Shown here: positions 34,519-53,707 of the stretch, one piece after another
How the letters are laid out: the number at the start of each line of letters is the position of its first letter
Position numbering within the stretch: the stretch's first letter is position 1
Assembly (NCBI RefSeq): GCF_002000055.1
Contig: NZ_MVBD01000004.1
Coordinates: 1-64,000, forward strand
DNA: 64,000 bases
Source of the DNA: Marinicella sediminis
GTDB taxonomy: Bacteria; Pseudomonadota; Gammaproteobacteria; Xanthomonadales; Marinicellaceae
Reading direction: 5' to 3'
Notes under the pieces: model-generated
The model's database searches: none
What the model saw: the letters and a program-made list of their open reading frames with translations, nothing else
Told to the model about the DNA's origin: nothing
Position numbers and translations under genes: made by a program

Positions 34519-34534
34519 GCTCCACTGTTTATTC

Positions 34535-35645: not shown

Positions 35646-35785
35646 TTCAATTGGGATCAGTGAAACATCAGCGGTTTTATCTGCCGTTCTGGATTCAGAA
35701 TCACACCAATTTGGCTCTGGTGTTCAGCCGTTATTAAGTCCATCAAAGATGTGTCCTTAGAGGGGGACAACAAGGGGTACAAGGT

Positions 35786-35801
35786 GGGGTACATGTACCC
35801 C
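35786..35801. repeat. Perfect 16-bp palindrome in the left flank
   Basis: GGGGTACATGTACCCC reads the same on both strands. Before the transposon arrived it lay about 165 bp upstream of the gntR -35, and it contains the GTAC cores also seen at that promoter (52408, 52417, 52426). An operator role is inference. Confidence 0.5.
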
Positions 35802-35938
35802 TTTCCTTCGATTGAACCATCCATTCCATCAGTAAATATCAAAAATCATCGAAAAAAAACCCATCCTTACATGCGCATCTTATGTCATTGTATTTATTGT
35901 TATTTTTCACAAATTACATGACTTTTGACAGGGATGTA

Positions 35939-35943
35939 AGGGG
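35939..35943. repeat. Target-site duplication AGGGG, left copy
   Basis: The 5-bp direct repeat AGGGG directly precedes the left terminus TGGGCC. Its partner is at 52359-52363. Five base pairs is the duplication length of Tn7- and Tn5053-type transposition. Confidence 0.88.
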
Positions 35944-36094
35944 TGGGCCTCCAAGTAAACCCTTTGCTTGGCTAATTTCCTATATCACTGAACTAAAGAC
36001 CTTTCCTCACCTCAACCACCAACTAAACCATTTGCTTTTTCTGTTCAATCCACAGCATGATTGAACATGCCACAATGGCAACTAAACCATTTGC
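35944..36094 (+). repeat. Left transposon end with TnsB-binding repeats
   Basis: The terminus is followed by repeats of the consensus CCAACTAAACCCTTTGC: L1 at 35951-35967, a degenerate L2 near 35989-36006, L3 at 36019-36035 and L4 at 36079-36094. Spacing is loose (roughly 29-60 bp), as in the left end of Tn7. Confidence 0.8.
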
Positions 36095-36405
36095 TTTTTT
36101 TTCTCAGAATTATTCAATTTAACCAACTACAATGGTGAGAAATATGAATAGTAAGACCTGTGAATTGTAGACGCATTTAATCAGTAAATTTCATCCTTGT
36201 CATGGTGCTGAAATTGGGGGAAAGGTCATTGCTTGAAATCAATTACGTATTTTTTCAAAGAGCGTAATCCTACTGGCAAACATCACCAATTAATACTGCG
36301 AGTAATTCAAAACATGGAGTTAGATGCGTCCTGAGAATTGCAGACACTTTTGGATGGAATGATTATCCTTGTCAATTTGCTATGATTGTAGGAAAAAGAT
36401 ATTTG
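36095..36405. other. Non-coding stretch inside the left end
   Basis: AT-rich, with no ORF that I can support. A further partial repeat (CCAACTACAATGG) lies near 36123-36135. Nothing else is recognised. Confidence 0.5.
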
Positions 36406-37506
36406 TTAACATCTTTCTACGTCTGCGACCTCTTTCTCATAACAACTTAACTTATTCTCAAAAAATTTTATTCTCGGTGAATTTAGGCCAAAATATTTAA
36501 TTTCTGTTTGGATTGCTTCTTCAAATAATCCATTAGCTGCAAACGCACATGGTAAAGTATCTTGATAGATACAGACATTTTCCATTTCTAGAGATTTTAA
36601 AGAATAGCTAACTGCATCTTTAACGTAGTTAATTCCTCTAGCGTTTTCTTGAGTTGATAATTCCCAAGCAAAATTGTTATATGCCAACGCAGATACATAT
36701 AAATCATCTATATCCAAGTAAGCTTTAAATTCATCAAAACATTCATGAGAAGCACCATCATCAATGACTATGCTATGGTAATAAACTTGTGTTTCTAATG
36801 TCGTCCTATTTTCTAAATACTTGTTAGTTTCCTCACTCTTTGTATTAATTCCATATGCTAATCTATAGTCATTATCAGAGTACTCTCTAGCATCATTAGT
36901 GTCCCAATTTAGATAGCTATTTTCAAAATTCCATCGAATAAAACTATGTTTTGGGACCTGAACAATTGTTAATGGCAAGTCCAGTATTTCCCCAACAGAA
37001 TAGTATAAAAATGATGATAGATCACAATCTATTGGCTTCATTCCAACATTCCAGAATTTAGAAATATTTATAGAACGATATTCTGGCTCATCAATTATTA
37101 AGCAAATTTTTTCATTGACTACTGAATGCCTTGATTCTGGTGAAGAAGTCACGATAGTGTTTAAGTAAGTGTCTGATAGTCTGTTTGTTTTGATGCAAAA
37201 GACATATCCCAAATCACTTAACGTTCTATCAATCTCAGAAAGAACTAGGATAGCTTCGTTTTTATTTGCATTTTTCAAATTTGGAATTTCAAGCTTGTTT
37301 ATACGGTCTACAACTGTTTGTAAAAACACATTTATACCTACATGGGCTTTTTCAAAATCAATAGGGTTTCTTCTAGAACATTTTTCTTCAATATCAATTA
37401 ATCTGTGCGAAATAGTATTAGTAAAATTATTGTTTATTGGAGATTGTTTGACATTAGAACAAGCTGCCAGGCTAAACATAAAAATTATTTTAATTAATGA
37501 CTTCAT
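36406..37506 (-). CDS. Lipoprotein with transglutaminase-like cysteine-peptidase motifs
   Basis: Encodes 366 aa. The lipobox is SLAAC (Cys 16). A central segment (residues about 175-230) carries DCDLSSFLYYSVGEILDLP, KHSFIRW and YLNWDTND, spaced like the Cys-His-Asp triad of transglutaminase-like proteins. The C-terminal third looks like helical repeats (AYNNFAWELST, AVSYSLKSLEME, ANGLFEEAIQTE) of TPR type. It is transposon cargo, nearest the left end. The enzymatic call is inference from motif spacing. Confidence 0.65.
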   Translation of the reverse strand: MKSLIKIIFMFSLAACSNVKQSPINNNFTNTISHRLIDIEEKCSRRNPIDFEKAHVGINVFLQTVVDRINKLEIPNLKNANKNEAILVLSEIDRTLSDLGYVFCIKTNRLSDTYLNTIVTSSPESRHSVVNEKICLIIDEPEYRSINISKFWNVGMKPIDCDLSSFLYYSVGEILDLPLTIVQVPKHSFIRWNFENSYLNWDTNDAREYSDNDYRLAYGINTKSEETNKYLENRTTLETQVYYHSIVIDDGASHECFDEFKAYLDIDDLYVSALAYNNFAWELSTQENARGINYVKDAVSYSLKSLEMENVCIYQDTLPCAFAANGLFEEAIQTEIKYFGLNSPRIKFFENKLSCYEKEVADVERC

Positions 37507-37770
37507 GATTATTTTGGCTTAATAAAGACTACACAAAATTTTACAGATACATTTGAACTATTTATATTAGCCAATAATTGCTTTAATTCATATCAATAAC
37601 CGCATTTATGTACATTTATTTTGTCTGGTAAGGCCTGAGTTTCCTAGACACTCTCTAGCTTCAAAAAAACTTCGTTTGTAAGGAATAACAATAAATTTTT
37701 CACATGTATCCGAAAAATCAGAGAAAACTTCGAGCTTAGATAAACTGATACCTATTTTCTTCTGCAAAGA

Positions 37771-38811
37771 TTAATCATTTTTAAAAATCGTTCCATCAAC
37801 ATCCCAACGATTTAAATTTGTTTTTGCCCTATCAAACATAAGAGCATCGAAGTTCACATTATTCGAGCGATACAATATATGCCTTATTTGAGTATATGGG
37901 TTAAGGTTTCTACCTATTTGATTTATGCACCACTCTCTATATTCCTCAATTCTTTCATAATGATTTTTCATGGCTTCCTCTACCTCAATAATTGTGACAT
38001 CATGTTTTACTTCTCTGATATCATCTACAAAACCTTCAATTTTATCCTCATGAAAATTGTATTTGGGATAGTAAGCGTGTACTAACTTTAAAAAATTAAA
38101 AGGATTAAGTGGCTGCTCTATTGGATTTCCATATTCGTCTTTTTCAATCTCTGCAGTTACTAATTTCGCTGTTTCCTCTCGCAAAGAATCGAATTCCCTA
38201 TCGGCTAATTCAAATAATCCGGCAAGATTGTAAACACGCCTCTTCAGTGGACTAGGTAAATCTTTTTTGTACTTGAGTTTATGATCAATTTCACTCCAAG
38301 CATCCTGGGCAATAGTTCTGACTTGAACTTCAAAAGGAAAATCCTTTAAGCTTTTATATTCAGGAAGGTTAATCCTTTTATTATTCAGTTTTAAATCAAG
38401 ATGCTGCCCCTTATATCCAAACTTATCATCTTCTGAATGTAATTCTTTTGTTTTATTTGTTTCATCTATCAAACAAAAGTTGGATTTTAACTTACCTACT
38501 ACAGTTTCTATATTAGACTCATAAAGACATACCACCCTGATGCCGATGATATCAGTTAAATAATTTTTTATTTCATATTCAGTTGATTTTTGCTCTAGAT
38601 CTGTTTGATATTTTCGTTGAAATTTCTTCACGCATTCATTTCTGTCTTTCAGGCGAGAGAGAACTTTTGGTAAAGGAACACCTTCTATACCTGAAAGTAA
38701 TAGGTGGATTAAATTTTTGTATGTTTTTTCAGCCGCCCTTAGGAGTGGATAGTTTTGAGCATACCACTCTCGGAAGTTTCTATTTGCAGTTTCAAAATCT
38801 TGTGAAGGCAT
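37771..38811 (-). CDS. RelA/SpoT-type (p)ppGpp synthetase domain protein
   Basis: Encodes 346 aa. The synthetase domain covers residues about 40-185 and looks complete: RLKDRNECVKKFQRKY, TDIIGIRVV (Asp 87, Arg 92), the G-loop GYKGQH (Tyr 133), and EVQVRTIAQDAWSEIDHKL (Glu 161, Arg 165). No HD hydrolase, TGS or ACT domain is present, so it is a small alarmone synthetase with a C-terminal extension of about 150 residues of unknown fold. Such proteins can act as housekeeping SAS enzymes, toxSAS toxins or CapRel-type phage-triggered toxins. No antitoxin is recognisable next to it. Confidence 0.88.
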   Translation of the reverse strand: MPSQDFETANRNFREWYAQNYPLLRAAEKTYKNLIHLLLSGIEGVPLPKVLSRLKDRNECVKKFQRKYQTDLEQKSTEYEIKNYLTDIIGIRVVCLYESNIETVVGKLKSNFCLIDETNKTKELHSEDDKFGYKGQHLDLKLNNKRINLPEYKSLKDFPFEVQVRTIAQDAWSEIDHKLKYKKDLPSPLKRRVYNLAGLFELADREFDSLREETAKLVTAEIEKDEYGNPIEQPLNPFNFLKLVHAYYPKYNFHEDKIEGFVDDIREVKHDVTIIEVEEAMKNHYERIEEYREWCINQIGRNLNPYTQIRHILYRSNNVNFDALMFDRAKTNLNRWDVDGTIFKND

Positions 38812-39040
38812 TTTGTTTCCTCTCTATTCTTAACATTTTTTTACATGAATACCATCTAACAAGATATTTGCATAATATCAATGCTCGTTGTTTTGACAGT
38901 ACTCCATTCTAAATCTTTGTGATAAAGATCGAGTTTGTTAAACACTCTACTGATTCTCACACACCATTGGGTTTTAGTTCGTTTCCAGAGACGATTTCAG
39001 GTATTACTTCGATTCCACGGACCATTTAGAGAAGATTTTT

Positions 39041-39544
39041 CTAATCTAAATATCTAAAAACTCTACGAACATAGTAATTTTTATGATTCTCTGCATCATA
39101 AAATGAAAATTCATCTTGTGTTGGGAGGGCTCCTAAAGCCATTTCTAACTGCTTGTTTATTTCTAGATATATAGCAATACCATCAACCAACATTACGGAT
39201 CGAATAAATTTTTTACTAACATATCCTGACTTGTACAATTTATAACCTCTATAAAAATAATGACTTACTTTCCTTCTGGCAAGATCAACTTCTTTTGCTT
39301 CTTCGTTTCCAACTCTTAGGTCTTTGAGCCACTTCGAAGCAAAATTATTTATATTGGAGTCCCTGTACTCTCTCAACAATCGTAAAGATCTTGACATCTC
39401 GGGGGAAGAATACTCTTTTAAAAATTCTACAACCAAAGAAGCTTCAGAACTTCGCTTTCTACTGATCAATGATTGCCATGAGACAAACAAAGCCATCAGC
39501 GAAATCATAACTACGGTCAAATCAAGTTCATCAATATTGTTCAT
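39041..39544 (-). CDS. Single-span membrane protein, DUF4760-like
   Basis: Encodes 167 aa. One N-terminal membrane helix (LTVVMISLMALFVSWQSLI) is followed by a cytosolic helical domain with VVEFLKEYSSPEMSRSLRLLREY and KVSHYFYRGYKLYKSGYVSKKF, the usual DUF4760 pattern. Function unknown. AT-rich transposon cargo in a run of same-strand membrane-protein genes. Confidence 0.6.
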   Translation of the reverse strand: MNNIDELDLTVVMISLMALFVSWQSLISRKRSSEASLVVEFLKEYSSPEMSRSLRLLREYRDSNINNFASKWLKDLRVGNEEAKEVDLARRKVSHYFYRGYKLYKSGYVSKKFIRSVMLVDGIAIYLEINKQLEMALGALPTQDEFSFYDAENHKNYYVRRVFRYLD

Positions 39545-39605
39545 TTGTTAATGCACCTCCCCAATTCGGATAGTAAAGAAATAATCTGCAGCACCGTGAA
39601 TAATT

Positions 39606-40433
39606 TCATTCTTTTTTCCACCTCAAAAGGTTTTCTGCCAAGTTTCTAAAATCATTGGTTGCGGCAATAAATTGTGAGCATGAATATTCATGGAAACCAA
39701 CTTTATTCGAACCATTAGTTGTTAATTGATTAAAGTAAAAGCTATCCTCATTTACTGGATTTATCTTCAGTTTTATTTTGGACAAACATACATATTGATT
39801 ACGAAAATCAAAATTTGAAATAAATTGATTACGGCCTAAATAAGCGTCTCTCTCAAACTTATATAATTCTAGGCTGTACTTCATGATTACTCCTCCAGCT
39901 AGACCAATGAATATTAAATGATACAGTGAAAATGTTTTAACAGAATCCTTTAGATTTTTAGTATAATGCTTAATCGTAACGGCAACTCCCGCTACAGATA
40001 TTAGCAATAAATTTATTGTCACATACTTGATTAATACCAAACTATTCACCAGCTCCAAACTTGGTTCATACAATGGCCCTACTGAATAGAATAGTTCGGT
40101 TTTTACCAGGTTACTCATGAATGAAAAAGCCAGAAAATGAATAACCAAAATCATAAATGCCAGAATTATTTGAGTGGGTTTAGAGCTTTTCAAATACTCT
40201 AAAATTAACTGATAACCTACGAGGTATAAACAAAGCAATAAAAGATATAATTCAAGAGTGAACAGCTTAGCTATGTTAATGCTTGTGAAGTATGATAAAT
40301 ATATTGAAAAAACTAAGGTAGCAACACCAGCCACCCAAAATCCATTCCATATTTCATATATTAAAAACCGTAGCTTTTTTTCCCTTTTTTTCTTTTTCAT
40401 ATCATGTAATACAGCAATAGGATAAAGCTTCAT
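39606..40433 (-). CDS. Polytopic membrane protein of unknown function
   Basis: Encodes 275 aa with a Lys-rich cytosolic N-terminus (KKKKREKKLRF), five or six membrane helices and a C-terminal soluble part with conserved-looking Cys residues. I recognise no family. It lies between two other membrane-protein genes on the same strand in the transposon cargo. Confidence 0.6.
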   Translation of the reverse strand: MKLYPIAVLHDMKKKKREKKLRFLIYEIWNGFWVAGVATLVFSIYLSYFTSINIAKLFTLELYLLLLCLYLVGYQLILEYLKSSKPTQIILAFMILVIHFLAFSFMSNLVKTELFYSVGPLYEPSLELVNSLVLIKYVTINLLLISVAGVAVTIKHYTKNLKDSVKTFSLYHLIFIGLAGGVIMKYSLELYKFERDAYLGRNQFISNFDFRNQYVCLSKIKLKINPVNEDSFYFNQLTTNGSNKVGFHEYSCSQFIAATNDFRNLAENLLRWKKE

Positions 40434-40474
40434 TCATTAGATTGTCACAATGGTTGGGCTACAAGTAGAATTCA

Positions 40475-40972
40475 TTAAAAAATTGACGGGATCACAATAA
40501 CTTTAAAAGCTATAGAAACGGTGTTAATTAACAGAATTAATGGAAACTCAATCCAGAATATAGGCTCCCACCATGAGAATCTTATTCTCCATCTTTCAAT
40601 TTTTGATTTCTGATGAAAAATAATCATCAAAGTAAAAATTGACGCAATCAAAATAAGTAACCACCCAATAGAATTGGCTACAGTCTTGTTGATCTGTTCA
40701 ATATCAATTGTTTTTACTTCCCTGGTTATTACATAAATAAAACCACCAAATATAGCCAATGAAATCTTTATGTAAAACTCAAACAACCTATAAATTGAGC
40801 TGTTATGAGCCTGTATGAATATCGTTCTGTCATCATCTTTCTCAGCATGGTGTTTACTCCTTTTCCTTGATCCGTCAGGCTGAAAATTGTGGTATCGGAT
40901 AATTAAACAAGAAAACACCCAGATTAATACTGGAATTGATAATAAAGCTATAAATTTAATCCATTCAATCAT
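40475..40972 (-). CDS. Four-span membrane protein of unknown function
   Basis: Encodes 165 aa from ATG 40972; a GTG four codons upstream is also in frame, and GGGGAAAGG lies directly before the ATG. It has about four membrane helices and a charged loop KRSKHHAEKDDDRT after the first. No family recognised. It is first of the 40.97-39.04 kb same-strand membrane group. Confidence 0.6.
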   Translation of the reverse strand: MIEWIKFIALLSIPVLIWVFSCLIIRYHNFQPDGSRKRSKHHAEKDDDRTIFIQAHNSSIYRLFEFYIKISLAIFGGFIYVITREVKTIDIEQINKTVANSIGWLLILIASIFTLMIIFHQKSKIERWRIRFSWWEPIFWIEFPLILLINTVSIAFKVIVIPSIF

Positions 40973-41011
40973 TCCTTTCCCCACTTTTTAGGTTGTTGAG
41001 ATTAGACTTAG

Positions 41012-41362
41012 TCATCCACCACAAATACTCTCACAAGGAACCCCATCGTTGTCGCCATCAAGACTGTGCACTTTACATTCATCTAAATAAAACTTAGCTT
41101 CATCACAACTTTTCATTTCTCTGCAAACAGTTTTTCCACTGCAAGTAAAGTTGTTTTTATTGGGATTTAATAGACTTCTTACCGAAGATCGAGCTTGTGA
41201 CTGTCTTGCTTTAGTTTTTTTACCAGAGTTGTGACAGTGATACTCACCTGTTTTCCGATTGTTGTGGCACCCATCAGAATTTGTTCTACCACCATGGCTT
41301 TGAGCAGTAAAACAAATGGAAAAACAAATAAATACAAATAACACCCTCACAACTAACAACAT
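41012..41362 (-). CDS. Exported YHYH and excalibur-domain protein
   Basis: Encodes 116 aa. The signal peptide (VRVLFVFICFSICFTAQS) leads into HGGRTNSDGCHNNRKTGEYH, the YHYH-type metal-binding motif, then CSGKTVCREMKSCDEAKFYL and the excalibur motif DGDNDGVPCE. Such small proteins are linked with extracellular nucleases and calcium binding. Its role in the cargo is unknown. Confidence 0.8.
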   Translation of the reverse strand: MLLVVRVLFVFICFSICFTAQSHGGRTNSDGCHNNRKTGEYHCHNSGKKTKARQSQARSSVRSLLNPNKNNFTCSGKTVCREMKSCDEAKFYLDECKVHSLDGDNDGVPCESICGG

Positions 41363-41571
41363 ATATCATGCCTTACCATGCATCAAGTTATTTTTCAATT
41401 ATGTACATAATGTTTTGGGGCAGTTGATTTAACTATTACATTAAAGGGCTAGATCCCGTTTCCAGGGAGGGTAAAGAAATGATGAATTGCTTTTTAACCT
41501 GGCCAAATTGTGGCAAACTCAATTGGTATACATATTCTTCAATGATAAAAGTTTCATACACTTAATATTTA

Positions 41572-41823
41572 TTGAGTAAGCTCATGTCTGTAATCGTACC
41601 CGAATCAAGTAAAATAATGAGGCGTTCAACCAGGCCTGTTGGTTTTAAATCTCCTCTTCGATTAATTAAGTATCTGGAACAAGATCAGATTTCAACAGAG
41701 GCTTTTATAAACATAATCAACTCCCTATCTATTCCTGAAGATAAAAAAAACCTGATCCTCAATCATCCCAGGGTTGTAAAAGCTATGAAGGAAAATACTC
41801 AGTTTTTTTGGACAGCATCATGA
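41572..41823 (+). CDS. Small protein of unknown function, coupled to the next ORF
   Basis: Encodes 83 aa, MSKLMSVIVPESS and so on, basic N-terminus, likely helical C-terminal half (DQISTEAFINIINSLSIPED). Its stop overlaps the ATG at 41820 (ATGA). No family recognised. It points right, toward the tniQ-operon end, so it is convergent with it. Confidence 0.55.
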   Translation: MSKLMSVIVPESSKIMRRSTRPVGFKSPLRLIKYLEQDQISTEAFINIINSLSIPEDKKNLILNHPRVVKAMKENTQFFWTAS

Positions 41824-42011
41824 GTGACAAATCTAAATACAGATCTGTGGACTCGACTAAGCAACTAGTTAATCAATATAGTGATACACAGCCATTGATA
41901 CTCACTGATGAAATGGCCACCACTATGCTTAAAAGCATTAACTGTCCCCCTGAGCCTAATCAAAAGTTATTAGAGGCTAAAGCAAAGCATGAGAAAACAG
42001 TGACCAATTAA
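41820..42011 (+). CDS. Small protein with a DUF1778/TacA-like C-terminal segment
   Basis: Encodes 63 aa from the ATG at 41820. Its C-terminal half, ILTDEMATTMLKSINCPPEP followed by NQKLLEA, resembles the toxin-neutralising tail of DUF1778 (TacA) antitoxins, in which a PPxPN motif occurs. The ribbon-helix-helix part of TacA is absent and no GNAT toxin follows. It may be a remnant of a toxin-antitoxin pair or a stand-alone antitoxin-like peptide. Confidence 0.5.
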   Translation: MSDKSKYRSVDSTKQLVNQYSDTQPLILTDEMATTMLKSINCPPEPNQKLLEAKAKHEKTVTN

Positions 42012-42017
42012 TCTGTG

Positions 42018-42548
42018 TCATACTGCATCCGTCTCATCACTCCTGAAAAAAACACTTACTTTTTTGTACTTTCGAGTAATGACCAACTCATCACAATTTG
42101 TATTTAAATAAATTAAACCTGCCTGAAGAATTTCAAACATGTCTTGCCAACTGAGAATCATTAAATCTGCAGTATTCCTGGCCTCAAATTGATTGACCAA
42201 TCCTTGAAGCAACCTTCTACAATCAATCTCGAAAAGAAACATTCTAAACTCGTCAGAGATGAAGTAGTGGCGATCATCCACTTGATGAGTCAAGCATTTG
42301 AAATAGATCTCGATCGGCTTGTTCTTCATTCTATTAAAGAATGATTTATTGAGAATTTTCGATGAGTTTAATTTCAGTGAATCATAACCATTTTGATTGA
42401 TATCGTATGACTCCCTACAAATAAGGCTCATCAGTATCTTCATAGAACACAAACTGCATGCTCCTTTGGAATTGACACAAGAAAAAAGATTATGTCCTGG
42501 CTGTTTTGTGTGGTCATTGATTTGCTCGCACAACCTATTAAGAACCAT
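42018..42548 (-). CDS. Unknown fifth gene of the tns operon
   Basis: Encodes 176 aa on the tns strand, 59 bp after tniQ. The N-terminus holds a cysteine cluster, CVNSKGACSLC, then basic and acidic helices; the C-terminus has NCDELVITRKYKKVSVFFRS. I do not recognise it. Its place at the end of tnsABC-tniQ suggests an accessory to transposition, perhaps a target-site or regulatory factor. It is much shorter than TnsE (about 540 aa). Confidence 0.6.
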   Translation of the reverse strand: MVLNRLCEQINDHTKQPGHNLFSCVNSKGACSLCSMKILMSLICRESYDINQNGYDSLKLNSSKILNKSFFNRMKNKPIEIYFKCLTHQVDDRHYFISDEFRMFLFEIDCRRLLQGLVNQFEARNTADLMILSWQDMFEILQAGLIYLNTNCDELVITRKYKKVSVFFRSDETDAV

Positions 42549-42607
42549 GAATTTTCTTCTACTGAAGTCTCGGTCTATTTTGTTTCTCTCTCTGTAATCA
42601 AAGTGCT

Positions 42608-43366
42608 TTAAACAGAATTTTTTTTTACAATTCTTGTTTCAGATACAGAAAACATGGACAGAAGCTCTAGGGTTTCATCACACTTGATGCCTTCATGAGC
42701 CAACGAGTACAAAGCCAAAACTGCTGAGTTGTTAATACGATCTTCAGAAATATCTTGATTTGGAGAAAATCGATGTATTTTGACATTTGGAATTTTCTTC
42801 GGAATCAATTTATTTAAGTAATACTCCAGTCGTAGAAACGGTTTATATATCTTCAAACCATTGGGATAGTTTTTATTCAGCTTTGTTCTATGAGGGGCTA
42901 ACCCACATAGGCCACAATTCCTTTTTGATAACTGGCCAACTGTAGGCCATGACTTACCGCAAGATGGACACTCACTGGTCAATTTTTCCCTATGAATAGG
43001 ACATGCTTTGATCCAGTAAAAGTCAAAGACAGATGAATGATATCCTTCAAATGCACAGGACTTACAGTGTTTGACAGGCCTGTATCTTTTAACGAACTTT
43101 GAACTGTGCTTAAGTACTTCGAATTGTCTAAACCCAGATACAGTGTTTTTAACCCTCAGTTTTTCAGATTCCACAATCAACCTGTGAACCTTCTCAGCAG
43201 GGCTCATTTTCTTGATTCTTCCATTCTCAAGATTTACCCAATTGAAGTTTTCAAAAAGTTGATCCATACCAAAACTCTTTTGACTCAGATTTGACTCATA
43301 CACTCGCTTAAGTCTTGAGTAAAAACTTTCTCCTGGCAGTGCAAATACCAAGCCGGTGATTATCAT
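42608..43366 (-). CDS. tniQ: TniQ/TnsD-family target-selection protein (short)
   Basis: Encodes 252 aa. The N-terminal signature LPGESFYSRLKRV is the TniQ hallmark. A zinc-finger region follows with CKSC (101-104), GYHS at 110, CPIH (122-125), CPSC (133-136) and CGLC (151-154). TniQ links TnsC to the target. At this length it lacks the long C-terminal DNA-binding domains of TnsD. Its ATG lies 2 bp after the tnsC stop. Confidence 0.92.
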   Translation of the reverse strand: MIITGLVFALPGESFYSRLKRVYESNLSQKSFGMDQLFENFNWVNLENGRIKKMSPAEKVHRLIVESEKLRVKNTVSGFRQFEVLKHSSKFVKRYRPVKHCKSCAFEGYHSSVFDFYWIKACPIHREKLTSECPSCGKSWPTVGQLSKRNCGLCGLAPHRTKLNKNYPNGLKIYKPFLRLEYYLNKLIPKKIPNVKIHRFSPNQDISEDRINNSAVLALYSLAHEGIKCDETLELLSMFSVSETRIVKKNSV

Positions 43367-43368
43367 TT

Positions 43369-44271
43369 TTAAACTCTGACCAATTCTTCAACCAAACCCG
43401 AAGCTTCAATGCTGTTTTTTATCATCATGCAAATTTCATCATCGCTTTGTACACCATATCTGGGTAAATAATCAGCCAATAGAATTCGTATCATGGCAAT
43501 AAAATACTGCATACCCCATGAGTGGATTTTCAAGTCTGACTTGAAATCAGAGGTGTAAACATCCCAAATCAAATGACTGATGGATTGAATTCTCCAGCCA
43601 TCTTTAAAAAGTTCAGGTAAGAATATTTCGGTTTGGGATTTATCAATCTCAGCTAAAACTTTGAATAATTCATCGTGGTTCCTAATACCATGAAATAAAT
43701 ATTCATTTTTAAAAAACCTTCCCCAAATATGATCACATTCAGGTGTTTTTATCTTCCTCAAGAGAGGCTCAGAGGTTTTAAGGTTACCAATGAAGATGAC
43801 ACTCAGATTTAATTGAAAGTAAGCAAGGGCATCATGCAGCTCATTAAATACTTCAATCTGATGAGTGCTCAACCGTTGCATTTCATCTACCAAGATCACT
43901 ACCTGCTTTGTACTGTTGGTACATGCCAGATCGGCAAAGTAATGAACCAGGTCATTGGACATGACATCTGCTGTTGCATGCGTTTTGATTTTCATCCTAA
44001 GGGAATAACAAAGCTTCTTTAAAATCCCAGCCACGGTTGTGACATCTCTTTCAGGAACTGAGAAAAGGTGAACAGGAACAACTTCACCCAATCTATTTTT
44101 CAAATCATTCTTGATGACCCGCATGGCAGCAGATTTACCTACCCGTGAATTTCCAAGAATGTACCCACCCAAATAACCATTCCATAACCAGCTCTGTACC
44201 TTAGACTTTAGTTGGCTGACCATTGGTGTCTCAATAAAGAAACCACTTGAATTAAAAATATCACTGCTCAT
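43369..44271 (-). CDS. tnsC: TnsC-family AAA ATPase
   Basis: Encodes 300 aa from MSSDIFNSSGFF at 44271; an ORF start at 44331 would overlap tnsB further. Walker A is GNSRVGKS (residues 40-47) and Walker B is VVILVDE (124-130). TnsC assembles on target DNA with TniQ and recruits TnsAB. The start overlaps the tnsB 3' end by 11 bp. Confidence 0.93.
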   Translation of the reverse strand: MSSDIFNSSGFFIETPMVSQLKSKVQSWLWNGYLGGYILGNSRVGKSAAMRVIKNDLKNRLGEVVPVHLFSVPERDVTTVAGILKKLCYSLRMKIKTHATADVMSNDLVHYFADLACTNSTKQVVILVDEMQRLSTHQIEVFNELHDALAYFQLNLSVIFIGNLKTSEPLLRKIKTPECDHIWGRFFKNEYLFHGIRNHDELFKVLAEIDKSQTEIFLPELFKDGWRIQSISHLIWDVYTSDFKSDLKIHSWGMQYFIAMIRILLADYLPRYGVQSDDEICMMIKNSIEASGLVEELVRV

Positions 44272-46156
44272 CAGTACGGTCCGAAGTGTTGTTGAACATA
44301 CTGACGTCCCAGGGCTTAATAATGATGTCACGAGTAAGTTTTGAGGGCTTATTCCTTAATGGTTTGACGTAAAGATTCTGGTTCTTTAATCCTACTGCTT
44401 CACTCTGAAATTCTCTGGCTACTCTGATGATTTCCAATGCTTTGTTAGGAACATGTTTTTCATTGAGCAAACTCTCAAAATATCCAGATTGATAGTCCCT
44501 GGTAAGTAACCTTTGTCTTTTAACAACCCTTTTGATCTTTTGATATGTCTTTAAACTGAGTGGATATTTTTGCCAGCTTTTTGAAGCAAATAATTCACCC
44601 AGATATTTGCCACTTTCAGTAGATGCTTTGACTGTTCTTATGTCTTTAACGTTAACAAGGATGATTACTTTTTCACCATAAAGTTGGACATCATTGATTC
44701 CAGGGCCTCTGTACCTCATTCCTGAGAATTGCACCACGGGTGTTCTTCGCTCATGCTTGTATCCATACACCTTGACCTTTTCAATTCTCTCAAATGGGCT
44801 TCTACAATGACTCTCTGCCTTGTAATTGAGCTGCAACGGATATTGTTGGTAGTGTTCATGTAGTACTTCAAGAGGATTTTTGCCACCAAGGACGTTTTGA
44901 GGTTGAATATTGTGTCCTGTAAAAATAATGCTCAAAAAGTCTTCAAGCTCTTTAATATTCAACATTGGTGGTTTCTTATGATGTCGAAGTGACTCTTTTT
45001 TTGGATCCTTGGGATTTGATCCAGTAGTTGATTTGAATCGGTGCAAGTATTTGTTCAATCGGTTGAAAGCATACTCGACTGAGTTTCTCGTCTTTGGATT
45101 TGCCGGCAGTCCATAATTTAGAGTTGAATCCAATTCACCACACACATAATCAATGATTGAATATGCGTGATGAGCCATGGCATTATCAAGTTTTAGCTTG
45201 CCAATACCCAATCTTCTCATCTCATTTGAAATGGCTCCAGGCAGACATGCCCCAGGTTCATACTGAGTATTGGGTAAACAGATATCTCTTGGTTTCCATT
45301 CTGAATGAATCTTCACCAACAATGACAGTAAATCATATTGATTGGGCTCTTTTGAGAGACATACGTGATATGCCAATATACAATTGGACTCAACATCTAT
45401 GGCCAGTAACAGAGCAAGTCGTGCTACCCTCAGTGTAGATTGAACCCCGTCAACATCCACAACCACGTTACAATTAATATCCATAAGCTGTGAATCAATC
45501 TCCACCTCTTCAAAGCAGTACCTTTGCTGTGGTTTGTTTAGGGGTATGATGGCTCTTTTTCTTGCTTTCGCTAACAAGTAGCACTGTGATTGTTTATGGA
45601 AGTATTTTCTACAACTTTCCACTGCTAAGTTTTGCTGATCAAATGGGTATTGGTTGGAAGGCCAATGTTTTTCTATTAGCAGCTCTAGAAACTTTTTATG
45701 AACAACTGCAGGCGAAAGGTTTTGACCATGAACTGAATCTGATACAAATGCTTTGATCATGGCATCTAATCGTACTTTTATATCAGCATGATTCTTCAGA
45801 ATATATTGAAAAGCGCCTCTTGCTCCTGAATCATTGTTTACACTCAGTCGAGTTTTCCTCTCTCCACCCAAGATTTTGAGTTGAGGAATCAATCCTGAGG
45901 TTAGACTCGGCTCCTCATAGGGTAGGCCAGCTAAACACCTATTGAGTAAATATGAAATAAACTGGCGCGTTACATTGACGTCTCGGCTGACATCGCTGAT
46001 TTTTTCTCCCAACATCACTCTTGAAACAATGATTTTATTTCTGATAAATTTCTTATTCTTATCACGCGGTAAATCAATGATGTTAATACCTGGCCATGTA
46101 TTGATGTCTTTTAGTGAAGGATTTTGCATCAACCTTTTCTTCCAACTCATGAACAT
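44261..46156 (-). CDS. tnsB: TnsB-family DDE transposase
   Basis: Encodes 631 aa. The N-terminal half holds DNA-binding helices (EKISDVSRDVNVTRQFISYL is a helix-turn-helix). The integrase core carries the triad Asp 221 (EVEIDSQL), Asp 324 (KLDNAMAHH) and Glu 361 (RNSVEYAF), a DD(36)E arrangement. TnsB joins the 3' ends to target DNA and binds the end repeats. It begins 7 bp inside the tnsA 3' end. Confidence 0.95.
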   Translation of the reverse strand: MFMSWKKRLMQNPSLKDINTWPGINIIDLPRDKNKKFIRNKIIVSRVMLGEKISDVSRDVNVTRQFISYLLNRCLAGLPYEEPSLTSGLIPQLKILGGERKTRLSVNNDSGARGAFQYILKNHADIKVRLDAMIKAFVSDSVHGQNLSPAVVHKKFLELLIEKHWPSNQYPFDQQNLAVESCRKYFHKQSQCYLLAKARKRAIIPLNKPQQRYCFEEVEIDSQLMDINCNVVVDVDGVQSTLRVARLALLLAIDVESNCILAYHVCLSKEPNQYDLLSLLVKIHSEWKPRDICLPNTQYEPGACLPGAISNEMRRLGIGKLKLDNAMAHHAYSIIDYVCGELDSTLNYGLPANPKTRNSVEYAFNRLNKYLHRFKSTTGSNPKDPKKESLRHHKKPPMLNIKELEDFLSIIFTGHNIQPQNVLGGKNPLEVLHEHYQQYPLQLNYKAESHCRSPFERIEKVKVYGYKHERRTPVVQFSGMRYRGPGINDVQLYGEKVIILVNVKDIRTVKASTESGKYLGELFASKSWQKYPLSLKTYQKIKRVVKRQRLLTRDYQSGYFESLLNEKHVPNKALEIIRVAREFQSEAVGLKNQNLYVKPLRNKPSKLTRDIIIKPWDVSMFNNTSDRTDEQ

Positions 46157-46863
46157 AGTGCCACCATAGTTGAATAATTGATCTTCCTGTCTTTCAAATC
46201 CAATGCAATCTGTCCTCTATGCGCCAATCTAAAAACAGCAATTTCTAATTTCTGATTAGCCAGGCGATCACCAATCTTTATTAAAAGTCCAAATTCAGTT
46301 TCACCTTCCACTGACAATTGGTCCATGATCTTTAACTCTTCTGTATCAGTATTGATCATTTCAGCACTGAGAAGAGTTTTAACAATGTGGTGCCAATTCA
46401 GTGCAAGTGTTTCTTTTTTCAAAATTGATTCATTAGTCAGGACTTTGAAGTTAAATCCTTGTTGCTTGAAGTAGCCCTTTAGAGGTTTCTTCAACTTGGT
46501 ATCAAACTTACCTTCTGGCTTCAGCTCAATAACATATCTTTTAGTTCTGAATACATAGAAACAATCAGGAACATATCTTCTGTTTTGAACCAGCAAACGA
46601 AATGGTTGTGGAACAAATGAAGTAATCAATGGGTTTCCTTCTAGCAAAGCAGCATGCAAATACTCAGGGTAAGAGTGAAATATGGCTATCTGGGGAAATT
46701 TTATGAATCTCTGGAGATAATAATCTGTAGCTCTATTCAGTTTCTTGGCTGATGAATGTTGTTGTATTGGAGTTAGTGATTCAGATTCAATCCTTACATC
46801 ACTGAAAAAATTTTGAGCGAATTGTCTTTCTTGTTTAGCCATCTGAAAAAATTGCTTTTCCAT
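46147..46863 (-). CDS. tnsA: TnsA-family endonuclease
   Basis: Encodes 238 aa from the ATG at 46863; an upstream TTG at 46920 is in frame but unlikely. The nuclease core shows SYPEYLHAALLEGNP (Glu 67), YVPDCFYVF (Asp 100) and YVIELKPEG (Glu 113, Lys 115), the PD-ExK-like TnsA site. TnsA cuts the 5' strand, so the element is expected to move by cut-and-paste. It is first of the tnsA-tnsB-tnsC-tniQ operon. Confidence 0.92.
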   Translation of the reverse strand: MEKQFFQMAKQERQFAQNFFSDVRIESESLTPIQQHSSAKKLNRATDYYLQRFIKFPQIAIFHSYPEYLHAALLEGNPLITSFVPQPFRLLVQNRRYVPDCFYVFRTKRYVIELKPEGKFDTKLKKPLKGYFKQQGFNFKVLTNESILKKETLALNWHHIVKTLLSAEMINTDTEELKIMDQLSVEGETEFGLLIKIGDRLANQKLEIAVFRLAHRGQIALDLKDRKINYSTMVALCS

Positions 46864-46894
46864 TAATTTACACCAGATTTTCAGAATAGGTTGC

Positions 46895-46918
46895 GTACAA
46901 CTGATAGAACTGTTGTAC
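46895..46918. promoter_or_regulatory. Inverted repeat upstream of tnsA
   Basis: GTACAAC (46895-46901) and GTTGTAC (46912-46918) form 7-bp arms around 10 bp, 32 bp upstream of the tnsA ATG. It lies between tnsA and the divergent MerR-like regulator gene, so it is the likely operator of that regulator. No clean promoter hexamers could be fixed. Confidence 0.55.
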
Positions 46919-47072
46919 AATGTAAATTATTGATATATTTATATAATTTACTAATTTGGGATATTGAGAAATAAAGTTTACATAACAATGCTTTTAATAA
47001 ACTTAGTTTACTAACTCATGGTATTCGCAAACTCATATTTGCAATATAAGCAATTATTAAATTACCGTCTCG

Positions 47073-47543
47073 GTGAAAAAAAACTTAGAAACAAATTGCG
47101 ATGCGGCTTGTTTAAAGCCTGGAGCTCTAATTGAATTACTTAAAATCAGTGATCAGACGTTAAGATATTGGAGAAATCATCTCGACCCACGACAAGATAA
47201 ACATATTTTTACTGGTAGAGATATATTAATGTATTCAGTATTCAATTTAATGATTCGAGCTGAACAAGTTCAAGTTCGAGACTTGAAAGGTCACAACTGG
47301 GCCGAGGTGTTTAACTTCTGCCATAAGTCTTCCAATCAAATTTTACTCAATAGTGCTCTGGTTTATGACGCTTATACAAAAAGCTTGTATATTGCAAAAA
47401 ATGAATCTGAAATTGACCTTGAGGACAATTGGATTCATTGTGTTAAGTTTAGAGTTGCGAGAAAACTAATCCTTGATGCTTTAGACAATATAGTTAAGAA
47501 GGATAACATTGTTTATATTAATACTTATTGCTCAAATCGTTGA
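47073..47543 (+). CDS. MerR-like regulator divergent from tnsA
   Basis: Encodes 156 aa with a GTG start. Residues about 15-75 form a MerR-type winged helix: ALIELLKISDQTLRYWRNHL, then HIFTGRDILMYSV. The C-terminal part is a short helical tail without an obvious ligand-binding domain. Placed head-to-head with tnsA over an inverted repeat, it is the probable regulator of transposition. Confidence 0.75.
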   Translation: MKKNLETNCDAACLKPGALIELLKISDQTLRYWRNHLDPRQDKHIFTGRDILMYSVFNLMIRAEQVQVRDLKGHNWAEVFNFCHKSSNQILLNSALVYDAYTKSLYIAKNESEIDLEDNWIHCVKFRVARKLILDALDNIVKKDNIVYINTYCSNR

Positions 47544-47715
47544 TTTTCACCCCAAAAATAACCGTGAAATTCCTATAAGGCATAGTTAAATTTGACTTTC
47601 AGTTGCTCAACGTCAAATATAACAATATTGCAACCACTAATGTTTTTATATTTTTTTGCACAGATTTTGCTTCACAATTAAATTATTCTCTGTATACACT
47701 ATCTAGAATTTATTT

Positions 47716-49080
47716 GTGAGCATCATAGTCATGGAGTCATTTTTAACCGATTTTGATGAAAGTTTGACTTTCGAAAAAAGAGATGAATTCAAAAGATTGC
47801 CAATAGCAAATAATATTATTAAGCTATTGAAGTCAGAAACAGACATTTCTCCAATGGTGATTGATGGTGGCTGGGGCTCAGGTAAAACAGAGTTTTCAAT
47901 TAAACTGATAAATCACCTGAATAAGGCTCCAGGAAATCACAAAGTCATTTATATAGATGCATATAAAGCAGACTATAGTGATGAGCCTATCCTTACAATC
48001 ATTGCTTCAATACTCAATTTATTTCCTGACCAAGATGGCTCTGTTAGAAAAAACATTATACCAGCAGTCAAATATGGTTCAAAAGTACTGATGAAAGCGG
48101 CTTTAGGCTGGACTCTTAGGCAAGATTTCGCGGATGTTGTTCAAGATTTCGAAAAAACTGTTGAAGAAGTTGGAAATGATGCAATTGACAAACTCATAAA
48201 AGATCATCAAGAAGCTAAAAAAAGTATAGAGCTATTAACCAACACTCTAAAGGAACTGACTAAAGAAAATCCTTTGATAATATTCATTGATGAGCTTGAT
48301 AGATGTAAGCCCGATTTTGCTATCAAATTACTTGAAAACATTAAACATATATTTGACCTTCCTAAAATTCAGTTTGTTCTTATAGCTAACAAAAATCAAC
48401 TAAGAAATTCAATAAATCACGCATATGGATTAAGTGTGAATTCACACCAATATCTAGATAAGTTTTTAAAATATAGTATTTCATTACCAGTTTCCAATGT
48501 GAGTAATGGTGAAAAAATTGGTCATTATGCAGTTGACCATTATTTTAAGCTGTTACGTGAAAGCCCAATATTATCTAATTCAGAACTCTTAAGAACTAAA
48601 TACGATAATTTTATACAAAGGCTCTTTGAAGAAAACAATCTAAGCTTTAGAGAAGTGGAAACCTTAGTTCGGCATTTAGAAATACACCAAACAGTTTCAC
48701 ACTATCTGGGTAACATGAGACTTGGCGATTTATTGTTGACTTTACTTGGCACTTTCATTTTTTGCTTCAAACCCAAGTTAACAAGTCATATAGAACTTGA
48801 GAAATTTGATCCTCAAGAAATATTAGATTTAATTGGTATTAATGCTGATGAGTACACATTACCCAATAATGCATCAATCACTACTACAACTAGAATAGAT
48901 ATTGTTTCAATCGTAATTCTTGTGGATTCGCAAAGTAAATCTCCATCAGATATCAACCCTGAAACTGATTTAGTTGAAGACATAATTGATAGGGAATTCA
49001 GACCAACTGACTTTTATGGGTCAACTGGTAGGCTAAGCATTATTCTAGATACTATAAATTATCTAAAACTAAACGTGTAA
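47716..49080 (+). CDS. KAP-family P-loop NTPase
   Basis: Encodes 454 aa from GTG 47716; an ATG at 47731 is a good alternative. Walker A is GGWGSGKT (residues 51-58) and Walker B LIIFIDELDRC (187-197) followed by KPDFA, the KAP signature. Between them is a helical insertion (about 110-180) with little clear membrane character. KAP proteins include PifA of plasmid F, which excludes phage T7, and QatA. A defence role for this cargo gene is inferred, with no second system gene identified. Confidence 0.88.
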   Translation: MSIIVMESFLTDFDESLTFEKRDEFKRLPIANNIIKLLKSETDISPMVIDGGWGSGKTEFSIKLINHLNKAPGNHKVIYIDAYKADYSDEPILTIIASILNLFPDQDGSVRKNIIPAVKYGSKVLMKAALGWTLRQDFADVVQDFEKTVEEVGNDAIDKLIKDHQEAKKSIELLTNTLKELTKENPLIIFIDELDRCKPDFAIKLLENIKHIFDLPKIQFVLIANKNQLRNSINHAYGLSVNSHQYLDKFLKYSISLPVSNVSNGEKIGHYAVDHYFKLLRESPILSNSELLRTKYDNFIQRLFEENNLSFREVETLVRHLEIHQTVSHYLGNMRLGDLLLTLLGTFIFCFKPKLTSHIELEKFDPQEILDLIGINADEYTLPNNASITTTTRIDIVSIVILVDSQSKSPSDINPETDLVEDIIDREFRPTDFYGSTGRLSIILDTINYLKLNV

Positions 49081-49111
49081 CATTAAAAATAGAATTCTAT
49101 TTATTCATAAA

Positions 49112-49776
<665 letters not shown>

Positions 49777-49923
49777 TCAAGCGAAGCAATTAACACACAT
49801 TGCGTAGTGAAGCGAATAGCTTGTGGGTCTTGTGTGGTAAGATTTATAACTTTGAACAGATATGTATACAATGGATTAGCCAAATTTGAAGTTTAACTCA
49901 GCACAATCTAAAGAGCATGAACA

Positions 49924-50568
49924 ATGAATGAACGTTCGAGAACATTAAATCACTTATTGATTTCACTTTTTTTGTTGATTTCAAACAACTCATATTCAGG
50001 CGAGTATGCACAAATCCATGAACCAATAAAAAAAGAGTATAAACAATCGCTTCTGGATGGTATTAAATCAACATACAAACAGACTGGTGAATTCAAGGAC
50101 TCATTCAGTATGATTTGCGATATGGGCGAAGCAATAGAAATTGAGGAAAAAGAAGGTTGGTATTCAAACAACCCTGTCCCTGGTTTAAAGCTTGAATTAA
50201 GGGCAAGAGCAGTCACAAAAATGGGTGAAACATCTTTTAAGGCAAGTGGCTTTGTGGTTGTGACTAAAAACGGTGACGACTTAATTGTTTTTAAGCCTAT
50301 TGGAAATTTAGAGAATGGTGTATGGAATGGGGATGTGTTTAATAGTTGGGATGAATCTGCAACAGAGATTGAAGTAAGAAGCGGTCGATTTGGAAATGAT
50401 GGCTATGCTTCTTTTGATCTTTTAGATGGAAAAGGGTTCTTTTACAGGAACAATAATCCAGACCCTGAATATTTCTTATTTAACTGTAAAAGAATAAAAA
50501 AAACCGGCTTGCCTGTGTATGATTGGTATCATAAAGACACCGAATCAAATTTAGATCTGAATGGATAG
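49924..50568 (+). CDS. Exported protein of unknown function
   Basis: Encodes 214 aa. The N-terminus is a signal peptide (LLISLFLLISNNSYSG). The mature part contains SMICDMGEAIEIEEKEGWYS and a region of alternating beta strands (FKASGFVVVTKNGDDLIVFK). No family recognised. It is transposon cargo following the resolvase. Confidence 0.6.
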   Translation: MNERSRTLNHLLISLFLLISNNSYSGEYAQIHEPIKKEYKQSLLDGIKSTYKQTGEFKDSFSMICDMGEAIEIEEKEGWYSNNPVPGLKLELRARAVTKMGETSFKASGFVVVTKNGDDLIVFKPIGNLENGVWNGDVFNSWDESATEIEVRSGRFGNDGYASFDLLDGKGFFYRNNNPDPEYFLFNCKRIKKTGLPVYDWYHKDTESNLDLNG

Positions 50569-50637
50569 ATTTTTTTCTTGTAGGTCAAATTTCCTGGGAA
50601 ATAATGGTTTGGCAATCTCAACGACAAGGTTTCTATT

Positions 50638-50844
50638 TTGAAAACACTTCTCTTCCTATTGATACTGTCCTTTTCGACCAATGTTCTTGCATCAGGCTCA
50701 GGAAATGGGTTCATGCAAGTAATGCTGATGGTTTTTGTTGTGGGCCTGCTTGGTTTATTTGTTATTTCACTTTTGATTGCGACCATATTAGAAAAAAAGA
50801 AAAACAAAAAAACGAAAAACTCCAAGAAAAGTCACAATTTATAA
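50638..50844 (+). CDS. Small exported single-span protein
   Basis: Encodes 68 aa from TTG 50638, preceded at 9 bp by AAGG. The signal-like N-terminus ends ALAS-type (NVLASGSGNGF), then a 22-residue hydrophobic segment and a Lys-rich tail. Layout resembles the protein at 51641 (HALASNMGNG), though sequence identity is low. Function unknown. Confidence 0.45.
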   Translation: MKTLLFLLILSFSTNVLASGSGNGFMQVMLMVFVVGLLGLFVISLLIATILEKKKNKKTKNSKKSHNL

Positions 50845-50926
50845 TGGGCTGAATATTGAATTTTCTCGAAAATACTCTTAGCGTGGATGTTCTGCTTTTT
50901 AGACTTCAAACCCCTATAATTAAACG

Positions 50927-51412
50927 ATGACAATATTTGAAACAATATTACTGGTTATTGCTGTTTTCTGGCTTCTTGATATGTTCACAAGTTTATATGG
51001 ACCATCAGTAATCAACAAAAAAAAGGCCTATATAAGCGAATTAGAGTGGTCTTTGAGCGAACTTGAGGGCATATATGATACTGTCAGGAAATATCCTTTT
51101 GAGTTGCGAGAATTCTCAAATTGTTTTGTGATTAACTCTGAAGGCGTTAAATTGATCATGACGGCTTCTAAATTGAATGATATTGAACGAGATTACTTGG
51201 ATGGTAAATGCTTGGTTGCAAATGGTAGTAAATTAGTCGATAGTCTTACTGAGTTAATTTATTTTTTGACATCAGATAAAAACGCGAAAGAATTTGATTC
51301 AAATATATCGTTTGATGATTTAAAGAGTAAAAGCAGGTATTTTGATGAAATTTGTGAAAGAGTGGATGAAAGCCTTTTGAATTTCAAAACTAAATTTCAG
51401 ACATTGAAATAG
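50927..51412 (+). CDS. Single-span membrane protein of unknown function
   Basis: Encodes 161 aa. One N-terminal membrane helix (FETILLVIAVFWLLDMFTSLY) precedes a helical cytosolic domain with ELEWSLSELEGIYDTVRKYP and DYLDGKCLVANGSKLVDSL. No family recognised. AT-rich transposon cargo. Confidence 0.6.
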   Translation: MTIFETILLVIAVFWLLDMFTSLYGPSVINKKKAYISELEWSLSELEGIYDTVRKYPFELREFSNCFVINSEGVKLIMTASKLNDIERDYLDGKCLVANGSKLVDSLTELIYFLTSDKNAKEFDSNISFDDLKSKSRYFDEICERVDESLLNFKTKFQTLK

Positions 51413-51640
51413 AGGGTCGGCTATCATTCCTGACAAATCTTCCAAATGAGAACCTATCTTAATGTTATTAAATGGCTATTTTTAAAAATGGAGTTACAGC
51501 CACCTGCTAGATTTCAATTAATTGGCACAGTTACTTCATAACTGTGTAAACCGACATTTGATTTTAGAATCAAAACATACCCCAAAAGGCCACGATAAAT
51601 CCAAGGATGAATACAACAATCATGCAGATAAAAAACACTT

Positions 51641-51853
51641 TCAAACCTTTTTAAAGCTGAATTTGCTCTCGATCTTGTCACCAGACTCATAATCGATGTC
51701 AGCTGCGCACATCGCTATAAACAATGAAATAATGCCTCCAATAATCCATGTGATAATCATGCCTGGACCATTTCCCATGTTTGATGCCAGTGCGTGTTCA
51801 CTAAATGTGACTGTTGAGAGAAAAATGAAGTATGTCCTATTATGCGTTTTCAT
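51641..51853 (-). CDS. Small exported single-span protein
   Basis: Encodes 70 aa. A signal-like segment ends HALASNMGNGPG and a membrane helix follows (MIITWIIGGIISLFIAMCAADI), with a charged tail DYESGDKIESKFS. It shares plan with the protein at 50638. Function unknown. Confidence 0.5.
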   Translation of the reverse strand: MKTHNRTYFIFLSTVTFSEHALASNMGNGPGMIITWIIGGIISLFIAMCAADIDYESGDKIESKFSFKKV

Positions 51854-52290
51854 TTGTTGATTCCTTTATTAAGCTATATACGCTTGACTTACTGATTTTA
51901 TATTCATCTGATTAAGTTTTATGAGATCTCTAAATCTAGATAATCACTTTGGCTTTAAATCATATACAAATGCCGATACACCTATTTCAGCACCGGTTTG
52001 ACCTAACCTATATCCTCATCATTGTAATTGATATCCTGAACGTATTGGCATTGTTACATTGATAGTTTGTACCAGAACTAAGTGTAGTTATTACAGAATT
52101 GTCAATTCATAAATCATTTGAAAATATTTTTAATCTGTCTTTTTGTTCATCTCATCTCGTTTTTCAAGATTCTAAACAACATACAAATATTAATTCCAAA
52201 ACCAAGTCCCTCAGATTACTCATTTTTTATGTAAACCTTTTTCATTGTTGATAATTTCAATGTACCACACTTATTTAGAGCGGAATCTAA
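51854..52290. other. Non-coding stretch inside the right end
   Basis: AT-rich, about 440 bp between the last cargo gene and the right-end repeats. No gene or recognised RNA is visible. Confidence 0.5.
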
Positions 52291-52358
52291 ACAAAGGGTT
52301 TAGTTGGGATGCAAAGGGTTTAGTTGGCGAAATGTAAAAAGGTTTAGTTGGTGTCCCA
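52291..52358 (-). repeat. Right transposon end with TnsB-binding repeats
   Basis: Three inverted copies of the consensus, R1 (52291-52307), R2 (52311-52327) and R3 (52335-52351), are packed 20-24 bp apart and end in TGGGACACC reading inward. The tight array opposite a loose left end is the Tn7 asymmetry. Confidence 0.85.
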
Positions 52359-52363
52359 AGGGG
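52359..52363. repeat. Target-site duplication AGGGG, right copy
   Basis: AGGGG follows the right terminus TCCCA and matches 35939-35943 exactly, confirming the boundaries. Confidence 0.88.
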
Positions 52364-52384
52364 TCTCTCAGGGTGAAAATATAT

Positions 52385-52429
52385 TTGACTTTTATATTGT
52401 TCCAGTTGTACCATTAGTACACACGGTAC
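52385..52429 (+). promoter_or_regulatory. gntR-operon promoter and GTAC operator
   Basis: TTGACT (52385-52390), 18 bp, TACCAT (52409-52414) give a moderate -35/-10 pair. Three GTAC cores at 52408, 52417 and 52426 are spaced exactly 9 bp apart over the -10, a likely operator for the GntR protein encoded downstream. Confidence 0.5.
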
Positions 52430-52448
52430 ATATGGGACATCTAATACG

Positions 52449-53697: not shown

Positions 53698-53707
53698 GGA
53701 GTTCATC

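Follow-up and report, generated by a model that had tools for sequence, protein, structure and literature searches.

The closest described system to the locus treated here is Tn7, represented by its copy on plasmid R721 (L099). Tn7 carries TnsA, TnsB, TnsC, and a selector of the TniQ family, duplicates 5 base pairs (bp) of its target, and inserts at the 3′ end of glmS, with ~20–25 bp between the insertion and its presumed recognition sequence. The repeats in its ends are spaced on the left and packed on the right. The TnsB sites number three in the left end and four in the right in the accessible part of Benler et al. 2021. For Tn7, the accessible portion of PMC2918618 places the TnsD site at +23 to +58 from the centre of the duplication and notes that the insertion point itself is not conserved. 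An element that resembles Tn7 in its genes, its 5-bp duplication, its repeat layout, and its distance from a presumed recognition sequence lies at positions 35944 to 52358 of a 64,000-nucleotide stretch of the Marinicella sediminis genome (contig NZ_MVBD01000004.1, positions 1 to 64,000; the window). Judged from its sequence, it is probably a Tn7-like cut-and-paste transposon that inserts beside the conserved promoter/operator of a gene for a GntR-family regulator (gntR).

The element departs from Tn7 in several respects. Its TnsB gives no BLASTP match to Tn7 TnsB at E 1, its TnsC is shorter, it has one TniQ (split) and, among the 16 ORFs scanned, no match to TnsE, and its target is a gntR promoter rather than the glmS 3′ end. 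With the Tn6022 family it has in common TnsABC and a small TniQ. That family is described in the accessible part of Faure et al. 2023 as having TnsF, an inactive tyrosine recombinase, and comM as its target; membership was rejected, as no 498-amino-acid open reading frame (ORF) of the TnsF type lies beside the window tniQ and the target is gntR, not comM. Tn5053/Tn402 (R751, L100) likewise combines TniQ with a serine resolvase. Membership was rejected here too, since the window element has TnsA, none being annotated beside tniA of R751, and its TnsB falls elsewhere on the tree. Type V-K CRISPR-associated transposons, as far as the sources accessible in part describe them, have a MerR-type repressor (CvkR), and a MerR-like gene also stands among the transposition genes of the window element. 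Assignment to this group was rejected because no Cas gene above family cut-off and no spaced repeat array were found; Pfam was run on 16 of the 21 listed ORFs of the element (the other five overlap larger ORFs) and NCBIfam on 10, where the KAP protein and the resolvase match Cas families weakly, far below cut-off. TnsA, TnsB, and TnsC are all present, and the element is a further member of the Tn7-like transposons, in a thinly populated TnsB branch.

Ends and Boundaries of the Element

The element and its ends comprise the following features.

35944 to 52358, no strand: Tn7-like transposon of 16,415 bp, delimited by its termini, a scan of end pairs, and GC content
35939 to 35943, no strand: left copy of the target-site duplication AGGGG, read directly from the sequence
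52359 to 52363, no strand: right copy of the target-site duplication AGGGG, read directly from the sequence
35944 to 36095, plus strand: left end, with the TGGGCCTCCAAGTAAACC terminus and three TnsB-site-like repeats
52291 to 52358, minus strand: right end, with the TGGGACACCAACTAAACC terminus (reverse complement) and three packed repeats

At the left boundary, ATGTAAGGGG passes into TGGGCCTCCAAGTAAACC, and at the right, GGTTTAGTTGGTGTCCCA passes into AGGGGTCTCTC. The termini are of the TG...CA form, their inverted repeat matches at 15 of 18 positions, and the AGGGG duplication is perfect. An earlier note on this DNA, made from the letters alone, had proposed these termini, with an imperfect inverted repeat and a perfect 5-bp duplication around a more AT-rich interior, and each of these points held. 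Every TG..CA pair with identical 5-bp flanks was scored, with left ends drawn from 20001–42000 and right ends from 47501–64000; the pair 35944/52358 ranked highest among the 3,137 candidates (15/18), ahead of a runner-up at 13/18. GC content is 34.3% within the element and 49.4% in the remaining window (0.513 and 0.482 in the 10-kb flanks).

Each end contains three same-strand copies of the repeat CAACTAAACC, each with 0–1 mismatch. The left copies lie at 35952, 36020, and 36079 (spacing 68 and 59 bp) and the right copies at 52341, 52317, and 52297 (spacing 24 and 20 bp). The two arrays are predicted TnsB-binding sites with a Tn7-like asymmetry. A clustering scan allowing ≤2 mismatches found one further, weaker cluster in the window, at 26672–26827, made of three 2-mismatch copies. 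Across the whole genome, all five matches to a longer end motif with 0–1 mismatch fall in the two ends; at ≤2 mismatches, there are 10 matches, six of them in the ends, versus 22 for a reversed control. The stretches searched of genomes G007, G214, G202, G239, G053, and G043 contain no cluster of three end motifs, and a terminus pattern applied to 18 genomes of the genus was too loose for use.

Transposition Genes and Their Relatives

Three of the transposition genes are as follows.

46147 to 46920, minus strand: tnsA, PD-(D/E)XK-type endonuclease; the ORF runs from a TTG and the true start may lie further in
44261 to 46156, minus strand: tnsB, DDE transposase of 631 amino acids; D221, D324, and E361 align with Tn7
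43369 to 44271, minus strand: tnsC, AAA+ ATPase of 300 amino acids from an ATG overlapping tnsB; PF13401, 6.3e-12

The order is tnsA, tnsB, tnsC, tniQ, all transcribed leftwards. The earlier note had described this set as complete, which stands for tnsA, tnsB, and tnsC and fails for tniQ, a split gene whose frame ends at 42608. The D221, D324, E361 triad of TnsB lines up with both Tn7 and Tn402, and residues of TnsA line up with those of Tn7 TnsA; the aligned residues of both proteins are presumably catalytic. Family matches are modest for single sequences: TnsA matches PF08722 at E 8.7e-05, under the Pfam cut-off, and TnsB reaches no cut-off (Mu-transpos_C, E 0.086), while a profile built from six TnsB sequences matches solved TnsB at 1.2e-05. 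TnsC has a weak TniB match and is 45% identical to the TnsC of a second element in the same genome, on contig C12; against solved structures it gave no match at E 0.01. No TnsE match was obtained among the 16 element ORFs scanned.

The earlier note had suggested a TnsB phylogeny. In a tree of 18 sequences, the window TnsB groups with those of C12, G007 (partial), G214, and G202 with support of 100/99, away from Tn402 TniA. This group is nested in a larger set of 13 rows, and the position of Tn7 in the tree rests on long branches that were flagged by the program. TnsB relatives at E ≤0.001 occur in 6 of the 369 genomes of a class sample and in 35 of 398 in an order sample, with the M. sediminis genome counted in both; the closest outside the genus, within the class sample, is that of G214 (34% identical). 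Plasmid records matching TnsB number 58, the best 20 of the 58 being 23.3–25.5% identical. TnsB searches of phages and viral contigs found none, and a further scan of genome contigs returned one locus, on a contig of the same-genus genome G007.

The Probable Target Site before gntR

Two features describe the right-hand side of the insertion.

52449 to 52841, plus strand: gntR-family regulator gene, adjoining the right side of the element
52384 to 52440, plus strand: putative attachment sequence, the conserved gntR promoter/operator block; 52384 to 52419 would be the TnsD site if Tn7 geometry holds

An apparent sister element occupies nearly the same place in G004, a genome of the same genus. 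Its contig C2 starts inside the element, whose right end (..GGTTTAGTTGTAGTTCCA) finishes at L033:3178 and is followed by CAGGG. On contig C14, the left end TGGGCTTGCAACCAATCC begins at L082:11908, with CAGGG directly before it. The window element lies 90 bp from gntR and the sister element 89 bp from the orthologous gene, so that the insertions differ by 1 bp; they have identical orientation and duplications of their own, AGGGG and CAGGG. CDF and MFS genes stand left of the G004 left end, and their window orthologues are at 26673–28850. That two insertion points before the same gntR lie within 1 bp of each other, in one orientation (n = 2), suggests a specific target site and an insertion that would be both site- and orientation-specific.

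In G013 and G015, the MFS gene directly precedes gntR (by ~300 and ~270 bp) and no element lies between. The earlier note had held that clean ends would allow the original target to be rebuilt and had proposed a search for the uninterrupted site in relatives; G013 and G015 carry such a site, and the rebuilt one resembles theirs in motif spacing. When the window flanks are joined with one AGGGG, GGGTAC/GTACCC motifs fall at −254, −242, and −234 from the gntR start. Corresponding positions are −242, −229, and −221 in joined G004, −262 and −239 in G013, and −241 in G015. In G003 and G001, gntR has neither an element end nor these motifs in the 400 bp upstream, and no MFS gene lies in the stretch read; the aligned gntR start of G001 is not ATG, which makes its distances rough. 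The right flank is matched by 13 of 61 genomes (the M. sediminis genome included), and the gntR locus was compared in G001, G003, G004, G013, and G015; the stretch of G036 did not align and was left out, and G014, G011, G025, G030, G041, and G047 stood outside this comparison.

Left of both insertions, GGGTAC...GTACCC motifs are present at 35770–35805 of the window and at L082:11745–11780, and they also occur upstream of gntR in two element-free relatives. In the window, ~7 kb of other genes (28851–35645) separate the CDF-MFS pair from the element; in G013 and G015, MFS adjoins gntR.

A promoter/operator block lying between the insertion and gntR is strongly conserved. Within it fall positions +23 to +58, counted from the centre of the window duplication, which read TTTGACTTTTATATTGTTCCAGTTGTACCATTAGTA; TniQ may recognise this block by analogy with Tn7. 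The insertion thus appears site-specific, the right end facing the gntR promoter as Tn7 geometry would have it. With a second gntR-site element and element-free relatives at hand, the recognised sequence can be bounded to ~100 bp. A literature search, with subscription papers largely outside its reach, found no report of a Tn7-like insertion at gntR, and ‘GntR’ does not occur in the accessible main texts of Faure 2023, Benler 2021, or a 2024 review.

The Split tniQ Gene

The tniQ gene is read in two parts.

42608 to 43366, minus strand: first part of tniQ, 252 amino acids, TniQ core with a Cys/His motif; matches the TniQ of relatives
42618 to 42626, minus strand: run of nine A (coding strand), site of the tniQ frame change
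42018 to 42617, minus strand: second part of tniQ in the −1 frame, ~199 codons open from the A run, with an ORF of 176 amino acids from the ATG at 42548

The run is the sole A or T run of at least nine in the element. The first part matches the TniQ of relatives (99.1%), whose profile in turn matches solved TniQ at 1e-4; by Pfam, PF06527 is found at E 0.0055, below cut-off. The parts sum to ~450 amino acids, and intact relatives have 473 (C12), 463 (G202), and ~505 (G214, start unsure). Predicted structures of both parts are poor (predicted local distance difference test score, pLDDT, ~34), and RNA structure at the A run is not beyond chance (z −1.22). The 176-residue ORF was considered as an independent target selector and rejected: the frame is open back to the A run and the summed length fits one TniQ, although no C-terminal match was found. 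Loci with TniQ-TnsD split into partial genes are mentioned in the accessible part of Faure et al. 2023. Slippage, recent mutation, or a miscall are possible sources of the frame change. An extended proposal is that the selector of this branch reads a promoter/operator before a regulator gene, not a gene 3′ end or a tRNA, and that slippage at the A run lets a single gene make both a short TniQ core and a long form that binds the site; as a whole, this is improbable.

A Second Tn7-like Element in the Same Genome

Contig C12 holds a second Tn7-like element of 57,396 bp (C12:2307–59702), with termini TGGGCGTCCAACTAAACT and TGGACGTGCAACTAAACT and the duplication CAAAC. A gene of FG-GAP-like appearance, judged by eye, has its stop codon 66 bp from this duplication. 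The C12 element resembles the window element in its TnsB (41% identical), its homologous termini, and a gene order with a MerR-like gene beside tnsA. It differs in its 57.4-kb length, its intact TniQ of 473 amino acids, its duplication, its target, and an extra right end in tandem. The extra right end stands directly before the left end, an arrangement like that of a tandem insertion, and its identity is 98.4% across 829 bp. The C12 island (C12:1–59707; L011, L012, L090) also includes what by eye appear to be metal-efflux genes (RND and P-type ATPase), along with tyrosine-recombinase-like genes. The earlier note had proposed looking for the same termini at other loci, and homologous ends are indeed present in the C12 and G004 elements. 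Because the window and C12 elements have homologous ends at different sites, the end motif is common and the target differs.

Cargo and Accessory Genes

The remaining features flank the transposition genes on both sides.

36406 to 37506, minus strand: cargo, 366 amino acids, no family above cut-off
37771 to 38811, minus strand: cargo, RelA/SpoT-domain protein (PF04607, E 5.4e-18)
39041 to 41362, minus strand: cargo, four ORFs (167, 275, 169, and 116 amino acids), the last with an Excalibur domain
47073 to 47543, plus strand: weakly matched MerR-like regulator (PF00376, E 0.041, below cut-off), divergent from tnsA
47716 to 49080, plus strand: cargo, KAP P-loop NTPase, near full-length match to the PADLOC candidate defence system PDC-S20 (3.3e-149)
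49112 to 49206, plus strand: putative res site, three TTAATAGACA-like repeats at 49112, 49169, and 49197, found by repeat scan
49207 to 49776, plus strand: Tn3/gamma-delta-type serine resolvase (2.3e-68 to Tn3 resolvase)
49924 to 51412, plus strand: cargo, two ORFs (214 and 161 amino acids), no family match

A MerR-like gene beside tnsA is also found in the C12 element and in G007, and its product may repress the element. The res-like repeats are spaced by 57 and 28 bp, a spacing kept in G004, and the resolvase is 88% identical in amino acids to its G004 counterpart. Resolvase and res-like repeats (window 49112–49776, L033:1176–1822) are the sole cargo found common to both gntR-site elements. 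The G004 element has different cargo at the same site (L033:1853–2983, L082/L083), including a large ORF near the end of contig C14.

Proposed Mechanism and Alternative Explanations

In the proposed mechanism, the repeat arrays of the two ends would be bound by TnsB, which together with TnsA would excise the element. A TniQ-family selector, coupled to these two proteins through TnsC, would recognise the conserved promoter/operator of a single gntR gene. Insertion would then take place 20–25 bp beyond the promoter block, with the right (tnsA-side) end towards gntR, producing the 5-bp duplication without damage to the gntR promoter. Directly readable from the sequences are the ends, the duplication, the genes, the second element within 1 bp in a relative (its two ends on two contigs), and the element-free relatives. 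A Tn7-like identity and base-level boundaries, as claimed in the earlier note, are supported by the machinery, the end architecture, the 5-bp duplication, the sister insertion, and element-free G013 and G015. Findings that the note had named as contrary to its boundaries, such as different ones in another copy, were not encountered; the G004 ends carry the same motif, with the insertion shifted by 1 bp. TniQ may still work despite its split frame, perhaps through slippage at the A run, and the element may still be mobile.

Several observations weigh against insertion at the gntR promoter by a working selector. The tniQ frame stops at 42608, just past the A run, with the remainder in the −1 frame, and hhalign detected no similarity between the second part and the C-termini of the relatives' TniQ. 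The C12 element, in the same genome, is inserted at another target. Known insertions at gntR number two, and the G004 element spans two contigs, the C14 end appearing insertion-sequence-like by eye, so that the pairing of its ends is drawn from duplication and synteny. A search of G004 found no close TnsB, only a distant one elsewhere (profile E 7.8e-7). The element-free relatives align well in the promoter block and in motif spacing only, not base by base; the motif agreement therefore counts as support by spacing.

The near-identical position, the same orientation, and a common res-resolvase module, 80% identical in DNA across 658 bp, could also mean that a single ancestral insertion at gntR gave rise to both the window and the G004 element, which then diverged in place by cargo exchange, in which case targeting would not be demonstrated. 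This is unlikely, as each element has a perfect duplication of its own, the insertion points are 1 bp apart, and G013 and G015 carry MFS-gntR without an element. Moreover, in the G004 interior that was compared (~4.8 kb on the left, ~3.2 kb on the right), only the end arrays match the window element besides that module. A replicative transposon of the Tn5053/Tn402 type, resolving cointegrates by its own resolvase, would account for the internal Tn3-type resolvase and res-like site kept in both gntR-site elements. It is most improbable given a TnsA with residues aligned to Tn7 and a TnsB that groups away from Tn402 TniA; in the accessible part of Benler et al. 2021, scattered resolvases in TnsA-bearing elements are read as no support for replicative transposition. 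A stronger contender, though at somewhat less than even chance, is that a simple mutation changed the frame, put an end to site-specific transposition, and left an immobile island. The split frame and the chance-level RNA structure at the A run agree with this, and the searches made recovered no close intact copy. The ~199 codons still open and a summed tniQ length near that of intact relatives speak against it; they fit recent loss equally as well as slippage. Such a loss is compatible with past cut-and-paste insertion at the gntR promoter, which is the preferred explanation.

Implications

The locus provides an element with base-level boundaries from a TnsB branch that has few members. If a promoter does serve as attachment site, the set of places readable by a Tn7-like selector would become broader. 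Two related elements with different targets in one genome also offer a natural comparison of selector C-termini.

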